From Anaerolineae bacterium (GTDB lineage: Bacteria; Chloroflexota; Anaerolineae; Aggregatilineales; Phototrophicaceae): a DNA stretch of 64,000 bases. The notes beneath the pieces are model-generated. The model saw only the letters and a program-made list of their open reading frames with translations, searched no databases and was not told the origin of the DNA. The translations under genes and the position numbers were made by a program. Each line of letters begins with the position of its first letter. Within the stretch, counting starts at the first letter, position 1. Below, in pieces: positions 59,473 through 64,000 of this stretch. Where the stretch lies: contig JALHNB010000033.1 of the NCBI GenBank assembly GCA_022843745.1, forward strand, positions 1 to 64,000, in the 5' to 3' direction.

Positions 59473-60111
59473 TTACACACGCACAACCGGGAAATTGTCG
59501 ATTCGCTGTGCGCGGTCTTCCGGCAGCACAACGAGGCGCGATTCTTCACGATAATCCAGTGCTAAGGTTGTGAAGGGGATCACTTTGCCCCAGCGCAGCA
59601 TGGTCATGACGGGCGAGAGCGCCAATTTGACGATCATCGCCTCGACCACTTCCCAATCTGCTGGTGTCGCGTAGGAATGCGAGAGGATTATCTGCGGGGT
59701 TTTATTGGGACGCGGCATGGATTTGTCCATCAAACGTGCGCGTAAACCCACGCTGAGTTTTTTCTCGGCCTGCGCCTGTACCGACTGCGGATAATTGCGA
59801 AAACGCCGTTCGAGATAGTCAATAGAGGCGGACACCGACAGCACATCAATCACTGCCCGCCGGATACCGCTGCGTCCGCTTTCATCACGCTGGTCGGTTA
59901 CAGTCACGTCGGAAAGTGCAACCCCGCCGCCTTCCAGCATAAAGCATTTGAGCGAACGCGCACCCTCATAGCTGCCCCATCCCTGACCACGCGGCATAGC
60001 ACTACGCCAGATCGCTTTCAGAATATCGTCTGAAAAGCCTTTAGTGGACGACGTGAAATTATAGCCGCGCTGATGCCCCTCAAGAACGTATTCGAGGATT
60101 AACTGTGGCAT
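59473..60111 (-). CDS. Hypothetical protein encoded with a small GTPase (GAP1-N-like?)
   Basis: This 212-residue protein has no signal peptide or membrane helix. The N-terminal segment (VLEGHQRGYNFTSSTKGFSDDILKAI, then MPRGQGWGSYEGARSLKCFML) resembles the GTPase-associated protein 1 N-terminal domain described in conflict-system surveys; that identification is from memory and weak. The rest is alpha/beta (SDVTVTDQRDESGRSGIRRAVIDVLSV and PQIILSHSYATPADWEVVEAMI). AGGGGG precedes the ATG. It follows the GTPase gene by 15 bases on the same strand, so the two should act together. Confidence 0.62.
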   Translation of the reverse strand: MPQLILEYVLEGHQRGYNFTSSTKGFSDDILKAIWRSAMPRGQGWGSYEGARSLKCFMLEGGGVALSDVTVTDQRDESGRSGIRRAVIDVLSVSASIDYLERRFRNYPQSVQAQAEKKLSVGLRARLMDKSMPRPNKTPQIILSHSYATPADWEVVEAMIVKLALSPVMTMLRWGKVIPFTTLALDYREESRLVVLPEDRAQRIDNFPVVRV

Positions 60112-60126
60112 TCCCCCTGCTCCGCA

Positions 60127-60831
60127 TCAATTGATTTTCTGCGGACGTGGGCGCATCGTATTGAAAAAATGCCGCATCGTTTGCTTAACACCTTTACCTG
60201 TGGCGACACTGCCTTCGCTGATCGACCATTTGTAGCCCATGCGCTCGGCCTGAGCTTTCAGCCGTTTTTGCTCATTACGATAGTGGTGCATGATGTCTTC
60301 CAGTGTGGTTTCATCACCCCACAGGTCAGATTTATTGACCAGGATGAAAAACGCCTTGAGATTTTTCGCGGCGATTTGCTCCTCGTCGATCATCTGCATG
60401 ACAAAATTGAGTGCATCTTTTTGCAAGTGTACGTCGGAATGGTCGATCATGAACAGGATGCCGCGTGGTTGGGCAGCGCGAAAGAGTTCCACCCAATCGG
60501 TTTCCCACATGGCGTATTCGCCGCCGACATCACGATTCGGCTTGAGTTTCATATATTGATCGCCCATCAGGGAATTAAAATCGGGGATGACATCGCCGCC
60601 CGCCGCTGTCGGGTCTGGCTGGAAATCGTCAATGCTGGACATATTCCGCCGCAGCCATTCGATCAACGTGGTTTTTCCGGTCTGGCGTGATCCCAAAACG
60701 ATAAACGACATGCCAGAGACTTTCACGTAGAAAAAGTCTTGCAGCGTATTCACGCCTTCGGTGACAGTACGGCTGACCGTGCTGATCGAACCGACGATGA
60801 CGGTAATGATAGTATCGAAAATATTGCTCAC
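60127..60831 (-). CDS. Small Arf/Ras-like GTPase
   Basis: This 234-residue protein is a P-loop GTPase. The phosphate-binding loop reads GSRQTGKTTL (about residues 48-57), switch II contains DVGGEYAMWET (an Arf-like DxGGxxxxW), and the guanine-specificity motifs NKSDLW and SVATGKG follow. The N-terminal ~40 residues are a hydrophobic, amphipathic-looking helix (FDTIITVIVGSISTVSRTVTEGV) that may attach the protein to the membrane, as in Arf and SR-beta. The start is GTG with AGAGGG upstream. It forms a two-gene unit with the protein downstream; a roadblock partner exists only at 12.7 kb. Confidence 0.85.
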   Translation of the reverse strand: MSNIFDTIITVIVGSISTVSRTVTEGVNTLQDFFYVKVSGMSFIVLGSRQTGKTTLIEWLRRNMSSIDDFQPDPTAAGGDVIPDFNSLMGDQYMKLKPNRDVGGEYAMWETDWVELFRAAQPRGILFMIDHSDVHLQKDALNFVMQMIDEEQIAAKNLKAFFILVNKSDLWGDETTLEDIMHHYRNEQKRLKAQAERMGYKWSISEGSVATGKGVKQTMRHFFNTMRPRPQKIN

Positions 60832-62595: not shown

Positions 62596-63432
62596 ATGCG
62601 CGAAATCACTATCGCAGTGGTACAAATGAAACCGAAGCTGGGCGAGGCCGAGGAAAATCTGGTCAAGATGTCGGAGACGATCTCCAAAATTGCTTCACAG
62701 CAGCGTGTCGATCTGATCGTTTTCCCGGAACTGATTACCAGCGGCTATGAACTCGGCGTGCGCTTTACCGAACTGGCGCAGCGCGTCCCTGGCCCGACGA
62801 TTAACCTGATCGCACAACGCGCCAACGAATATGGCGTGTATATCGCGTTCGGCATGGTGACCAAAGAAAAAGTCGAGAGCGTGTTGTATAACTCCGCGAT
62901 TCTCGTCGGCCCGGATGGGGAACTGCTCGAATCTTACAATAAAATTCACCTGCGCGGTGAGGAACGTATGGCCTTCCGCGAAGGCTTTAAACTCCCGATT
63001 ATCCCCACCGAAATCGGCAATATCGGCCTGATGATCGGCTATGATCTGGCATTCCCGGAAGTCTCGCGCAGTCTGGCGCTGGACGGTGCAGACCTGATCT
63101 GTGTCATGGCGAACTGGGAAGCGGCACAGATTGACGAATGGAAAACCTACGTTCGCGCCCGCGCCTACGAAAATTCAGTCTTCATCGCTGCGGCCAACCG
63201 CATTGGCGAGGATGTGACTCTGAACTTTGGCGGTGAAAGCATGGTTGTCGGCCCACGCGGTCAGATTCACGCCTCACTCGCCAATGATACCGACCCCGAA
63301 TCCGGCGCACCGCTGGAAGGTTTCGCTGTCGCCCGCATTGACCTGGACGAAGTGCGCAAGTATCGCGAGGAATTTCAGTTTATCCAGAATCGTCAGCCCG
63401 CCGTCTATAAGGCGTTGGTACGGAAATACTAA
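62596..63432 (+). CDS. Carbon-nitrogen hydrolase (nitrilase) family protein lacking the catalytic cysteine
   Basis: This 278-residue protein matches nitrilase/amidase enzymes: the general-base Glu45 (VFPELITSGYELG) and Lys116 (YNKIHL) are present, and the rest (GYDLAFPEVSR, NWEAAQIDEWKTYVRARAYENSVFIAAANR) fits the family. The nucleophilic cysteine that normally sits in IGLxICYD is Gly148 (GLMIGYD, codon GGC at 63037-63039). The usual chemistry, attack by a thiolate, is therefore impossible unless another residue substitutes. It may be a regulatory or binding pseudoenzyme, or a sequencing error (TGC to GGC). AGAGGAAG precedes the ATG. Confidence 0.9.
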   Translation: MREITIAVVQMKPKLGEAEENLVKMSETISKIASQQRVDLIVFPELITSGYELGVRFTELAQRVPGPTINLIAQRANEYGVYIAFGMVTKEKVESVLYNSAILVGPDGELLESYNKIHLRGEERMAFREGFKLPIIPTEIGNIGLMIGYDLAFPEVSRSLALDGADLICVMANWEAAQIDEWKTYVRARAYENSVFIAAANRIGEDVTLNFGGESMVVGPRGQIHASLANDTDPESGAPLEGFAVARIDLDEVRKYREEFQFIQNRQPAVYKALVRKY

Positions 63433-63515: not shown

Positions 63516-64000
63516 ATGCCCTATATCAAGCAGTTTTCCAACGACGAGGCCACCGGCATAGCCAAGCAGGAGCTTGATTCTGCGATGAAACGTGCCGGGC
63601 GCGTATGGAACATTGTCCGCATCATGACCCCCAACGGTGCGGTCATGCGCGCCTCAATGGGTTTCTACGGCGTGGCGATGTTTGGCGAATCGCCGCTGTC
63701 ACGAGCGCAGCGTGAGATGCTGGCTACCGTCGTTAGCGGGGCGAACCACTGCGTTTACTGACGACGCAGCCACGCGCATGACCTCCGTGCTGAGGTCACA
63801 TGGTTCAAAACTGAGGAAGAGGCCGATGCCTACGTCCATGCTATCGCGCGTGATTGGCGAACTGCGCCTTTAAGCCCGATTGATCGCACGTTATGCGCCT
63901 ATGCCGAAAAATTGACGCTGCGCCCAACTGAGATGGGGCCAGCCGATATTGAGCATTTACGCGCCGCCGGGTTGGATGACCGCGCGATCCACGATGCGAC
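63516..64000 (+). CDS. AhpD/CMD-like peroxidase-related protein with in-frame TGA at the active-site cysteine (candidate selenoprotein; partial)
   Basis: The protein opens with MPYIKQFSNDEATGIAKQEL, the N-terminus of the AhpD/carboxymuconolactone-decarboxylase-type peroxidase-related enzymes. The active-site motif reads Cys79-Val-Tyr-TGA(82)-Arg-Arg-Ser-His86, so the TGA stands at the second cysteine of C-x2-C, with His four residues later as in AhpD. Beyond the TGA the same frame stays open for 79 more codons to the window edge and reads like the family C-terminus (SHAHDLRAEV, RDWRTAPLSPIDRTLCAYAEKLT, HLRAAGLDDRAI). This favours decoding as selenocysteine over termination. A stem-loop follows the TGA. 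A TGC-to-TGA mutation or sequencing error remains possible. Confidence 0.75.
63759..63798 (+). other. UGA codon and candidate bacterial SECIS stem-loop
   Basis: The TGA is at 63759-63761. TGACCTC (63779-63785) and GAGGTCA (63792-63798) form a perfect seven-base-pair stem with the six-base loop CGTGCT, which starts 24 bases after the TGA and has G at its second position. This fits the geometry I recall for bacterial SECIS elements (apical loop 16-37 bases after UGA, G among the first two loop bases). Confidence 0.6.

Follow-up and report, generated by a model that had tools for sequence, protein, structure and literature searches.

A predicted selenocysteine-containing AhpD-like protein of the TIGR01926 peroxidase-related family in an Anaerolineae genome

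We analysed a 64,000-nucleotide stretch of Anaerolineae DNA (the window; positions 1-64000 of contig C33, 75,047 bases, JALHNB010000033.1) and found that a gene at its 3' edge is very probably a selenoprotein of the AhpD-like/TIGR01926 family, in which the UGA at codon 82 would be read as selenocysteine (Sec). We give this reading a probability of about 0.96 because the genome carries the Sec machinery, the TGA is conserved in homologues, purifying selection acts on both sides of it, and a SECIS hairpin built on near-frozen codons follows it; the coding frame, the machinery and the conservation of both UGA and hairpin were all established by computation. The gene and the residues of its putative redox centre lie as follows.

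63516-64094, + strand: predicted selenoprotein gene, AhpD-like (TIGR01926 peroxidase-related), 192 amino acids, with its last 94 bases past the window on the same contig
63714-63716, + strand: Glu67, codon GAG, 12 residues N-terminal to Cys79, invariant in alignment A2
63750-63752, + strand: Cys79, codon TGC, putative partner (resolving) cysteine of the CxxU motif, invariant in alignment A2
63759-63761, + strand: in-frame UGA predicted to be read as Sec82, second redox position of CxxU-x3-H
63771-63773, + strand: His86, codon CAC, four residues C-terminal to Sec82, invariant in alignment A2

The gene starts with an ATG at 63516, preceded 13 bases upstream by a GGAG motif, and ends with a TAA at 64092-64094, the TGA being its sole internal stop codon. 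A sequence-only reading of the window had proposed that the frame runs through C-V-Y-TGA-R-R-S-H, where the family has C-x2-C-x3-H, and that it stays open thereafter. Both points held: the TGA is codon 82 (peptide ANHCVY-U-RRSHAHDL), and the continuation of the contig shows no second stop before the terminal TAA. The in-frame UGA aligns with the redox-active Cys of homologues, and the layout Glu67...Cys79-x-x-Sec82-x3-His86 showed no variation in alignment A2, with Glu67 where AhpD-type enzymes have their catalytic Glu. Pairwise pN/pS values against eight relatives were 0.26-0.34 upstream of the TGA and 0.21-0.33 downstream, indicating that protein-level constraint is the same on both sides.

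The TGA could be a genuine stop, produced by a nonsense mutation or a sequencing error or left in a decaying pseudogene, since the standard code yields a truncated ORF of 81 amino acids and TGA is a normal terminator here, ending 5 of the 24 long non-overlapping ORFs in the 64-kb window. We consider this very improbable, because the same codon is TGA in independent assemblies, because purifying selection persists over the 110 codons beyond it, and because the genome holds a full Sec system. Among 200 relatives, all full-length matches above 42% identity have exactly one internal TGA, and the sole listed exception (G039:C84) is a 52-residue fragment that stops short of the site. When GTDB species genomes, a set that partly overlaps the 200 relatives, were scanned, 79 of the best 80 loci could be parsed, with TGA at this codon in 79/79 and a Cys codon in 0/79. 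Independent genomes thus show TGA rather than TGC or TGT at the codon 82 site, which speaks against a misread TGC, and the pseudogene reading was rejected on the conservation of the TGA together with that of the downstream coding sequence. The check for plain-Cys homologues was made across the family rather than within the genus, and within the genomes sampled no Cys form was found above ~42% identity to the gene; Cys forms appear only below that level. By their record titles, the 79 loci are mostly from Chloroflexota, with some Planctomycetota, Gemmatimonadota, Calditrichota, Latescibacterota and Actinomycetota MAGs, although this cross-phylum spread is suggestive only, because MAG labels can be wrong.

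The genome search proposed in the sequence-only reading recovered all four components of the Sec system above curated cut-offs. A tRNA-Sec lies at C19:121691-121785 (71 bits against a gathering score of 47; anticodon UCA by ARAGORN), and selB (394 bits, cut-off 242), selA (549 bits, cut-off 268) and selD (382 bits, cut-off 125) each occupy an open frame. With contamination of the assembly estimated at ~4%, those sel genes that lie on other contigs might in principle come from a different organism; yet the same pairing is seen in relatives. Fifty-nine relatives carry the TGA homologue and 57 of them carry selA (Fisher p = 6e-7, relatedness ignored), while selA is also common, in 92 genomes, among relatives that do not have this gene. 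The two TGA-gene relatives apparently lacking selA (G060 and G199) both have a tRNA-Sec above cut-off, so a selA that was missed or is broken is a likelier explanation than a genome without Sec. A recoded genetic code in which UGA stands for Trp or Cys, or is read through by a suppressor, is favoured by nothing beyond the continuation of the frame through the codon, and was rejected as exceedingly improbable because about a fifth of the long ORFs in the window end in TGA, so that the code does not look recoded, because the codon coincides with the catalytic Cys instead of being scattered over Trp positions, and because a conserved SECIS-like hairpin follows it.

That hairpin lies within the coding sequence and has the following position.

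63779-63798, + strand: predicted bacterial SECIS hairpin with a 7-bp stem and a 6-nt loop (CGUGCU), the loop 24 nt after the UGA

The stem pairs TGACCTC (63779-63785) with GAGGTCA (63792-63798) around the loop CGTGCT (63786-63791). The seven-base-pair stem and six-base loop had been recognised in the sequence-only reading, which placed the stem itself 24 bases beyond the TGA; it is the apical loop that lies at 24 nt, whereas the stem begins 17 nt after the TGA. Bacterial SECIS elements are described as having a loop of 3-9 nt, a stem of 4-16 bp, a UGA-to-loop spacing of 16-37 nt, an MFE of -7.5 or lower, and a G among the first two loop bases, with G or U frequently coming next (PMC13188914). 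The hairpin lies inside every one of these bounds, with a 6-nt loop, 7 bp, G as the second loop base, a 24-nt spacing and an MFE of -13.2 kcal/mol (UGA+49), and it is conserved. Its stability was not unusual relative to shuffled sequence (z = -0.33, +1.13 and -1.17 for three stretches), so the case for a SECIS element rests on conservation instead.

We therefore examined codon usage under the hairpin in 66 non-redundant genes. Leu90 is CTC in 66/66 and Glu93 is GAG in 66/66, Asp89 is GAC in 64/66, and Arg91 is encoded only by CGT or CGG, a restriction that keeps the loop pattern C-G-[U/G]. Synonymous codon entropy averaged 0.32 of expectation in the hairpin, whereas conserved codons outside it averaged 0.92 (Mann-Whitney p = 5e-5). 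Across 69 sequences, 97.5% of stem cells were paired, against 16-43% in slid controls. Two stem pairs showed changes on both sides; one instance is the fourth pair, where U-A replaces C-G in L067 and L153 (GAUCUC/GAGAUC). Since four of the seven stem pairs are invariant, the covariation, which rests on two pairs and on counts inflated by related sequences, lends modest support, and the synonymous freezing is the stronger line of evidence.

In a quick tree of 51 sequences, all Sec forms near the gene group without any Cys form among them, with 3 label changes compared to 7.6 in shuffled data, although many deep branches are poorly supported. Many genomes (L056-L065, L070) carry a second Sec subfamily, ~43% identical and with the motif C-x-Y-U-L-R-H-H (CxYU..HH), which is paralogous to the gene's clade; no copy of it was seen in the source genome (G000). 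Its hairpin, for example CCUUCGUC-AGUU-GACGAAGG, has a loop that begins 28 nt after the UGA, 4 nt further downstream, and its best-conserved members have the loop AGUU where the gene's clade has CGKGCY. We regard as evenly balanced the proposal that these patterns reflect an old Sec-only clade with nearly fixed SECIS codons, accompanied by a paralogous Sec subfamily whose different hairpin lies 4 nt downstream. A Sec-only clade, if true, would be unusual, given that Cys homologues are said to be abundant for most Sec families. Separately, very divergent AhpD-like proteins in L071 and L168-L170 have a TGA at the second redox position (motifs CFFU, CTFU and CPFU/CAYU), each with a different local hairpin, and are possibly further AhpD-type selenoprotein subfamilies.

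The protein, scored with Cys substituted for U, matches TIGR01926 (peroxid_rel) with 142.2 bits over residues 3-181 of 192 (cut-off 81.8) and Pfam CMD with 40.5 bits (cut-off 23). A 12-sequence profile retrieved solved peroxidase-related proteins, namely 6K40 (D. radiodurans, E 2e-39), 2OYO, 3C1L, 2PFX and 2PRR, and in the alignment to 6K40 and 2OYO the CxxC and Glu positions coincide. The AlphaFold2 model is all-helical (mean pLDDT 82), and its best solved match in a fold search was again 6K40 (TM 0.79, E 9e-11, 43% identity in the aligned part). The protein thus scores above the curated cut-off along its whole length and has the C-x2-C/U-x3-H motif, with a Glu ahead of it, in a helical fold of the CMD/AhpD type; its place is in the peroxidase-related TIGR01926 branch and not in AhpD proper. 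Its nearest solved structure, DR1765 (6K40), shares the Glu...CxxC...H layout but has Cys where our protein has the predicted Sec. The sequence-only reading had drawn an analogy to mycobacterial AhpD, in which the second cysteine, Cys133, is the reactive one, with His137. The fold class and the CxxC-x3-H motif are shared, but the M. tuberculosis Cys enzyme (1GU9) is only a distant cousin (fold E 0.06, 10% identity) and was absent from the sequence-profile matches at E <= 0.001, and assignment to AhpD proper was rejected on these values. Membership in NF041238 (AhpD_rel_CFYUT, an alkylhydroperoxidase-related selenoprotein) was also rejected: the CxxU core is common to both (residues 58-186), but the score is 69.6 bits against a cut-off of 175, and that model describes a different, longer protein (357 positions).

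The sequence-only reading noted that AhpD-like selenoproteins had been reported, and the literature bears this out. They were first described, with a CxxU motif, in the Sargasso Sea survey of 2005 (PMC1088965), the GOS survey lists AhpD-like 1/2 selenoproteins with CxxU (PMC2398784), and the table of a 2026 review includes an "AhpD-like protein, TIGR01926, CxxU", with MCB9421940.1 as the example (PMC13188914). The last shares with our gene the family model, the CxxU motif and a UGA with a downstream bacterial SECIS, and, judged by description, shows no qualitative difference from it. The gene thus adds a well-supported member to a selenoprotein family already on record, while a Chloroflexota-centred, Sec-only clade, its frozen SECIS and two subfamilies with differently placed SECIS elements were not found described in the AhpD-like selenoprotein literature examined.

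With respect to mechanism, SelB carrying Sec-tRNA(UCA) would recognise the hairpin just 3' of UGA82 and insert Sec, so that actual incorporation would be SelB-dependent. The resulting redox pair would be Cys79-x-x-Sec82, close to Glu67 and His86. Sec82 could then attack a peroxide or disulfide substrate and form a selenenyl-sulfide with Cys79, after which a cellular thiol system would reduce Sec82 back, the substrate and reductant of this cycle being presumed. Judged by homology, the protein is most likely a thiol/selenol-dependent peroxidase or a reductant for a partner peroxidase, and a peroxidase-type function taken alone seems reasonably probable; judging from the family, Sec may make such a peroxidase more reactive. 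DR1765 is the best functional anchor: in the work of Zhao et al., as relayed in PMC8945050, its deletion in D. radiodurans led to H2O2 sensitivity, and rescue was much weaker when the CxxC cysteines were mutated.

A selenoprotein whose main reaction does not involve peroxide, such as exchange of disulfides or selenenyl-sulfides with a partner protein, or Bmp8-like reductive dehalogenation, is unlikely but deserves weight, since other CMD-fold enzymes carry out different redox chemistry. CxxC chemistry is diverse within the CMD fold, the structural matches include the CMD-fold debrominase Bmp8 (6OHI/6OHJ), and the gene neighbourhood imposes no functional constraint. Against such a role, the closest relatives by both sequence and structure are AhpD-like or antioxidant proteins, and the DR1765 phenotypes relayed in PMC8945050 point towards peroxide.

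The upstream neighbour of the gene is listed below.

62596-63432, + strand: carbon-nitrogen hydrolase (PF00795), ending 83 bases before the selenoprotein gene

L076, L081 and L087 have a hydrolase copy 88-91% identical to it beside or close to the selenoprotein gene, an arrangement that most other relatives lack, and since the upstream genes differ among relatives, we claim no operon. Further TGA codons that lie in frame within redox-like motifs elsewhere in the window were set aside, as their flanking residues make them look like chance frames. On the - strand, a TGA at ~60129 terminates a small GTPase-like gene that matches Pfam Arf, and within a few codons the next ORF continues in that frame (59473-60111 and 60127-60831); these are probably two adjacent genes rather than a read-through, and an MglA/MglB-like arrangement at 59473-60831 is a guess. 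Just past the window, two adjacent ORFs at L004:7638-8904 start with TIR/SEFIR-like sequence (YVFISYAATD and IFISYRHRD).

Automatic annotation that treats the TGA as a stop ends the protein at residue 81 and drops its predicted catalytic residue, and the same would hold for the many homologues found. Our analyses show that Anaerolineae MAGs of the Chloroflexota very probably use selenocysteine in antioxidant-type enzymes. The two Sec subfamilies with different SECIS elements, together with the distant Cys forms, provide a clean natural set in which to follow how a SECIS element moves while the protein is unchanged.
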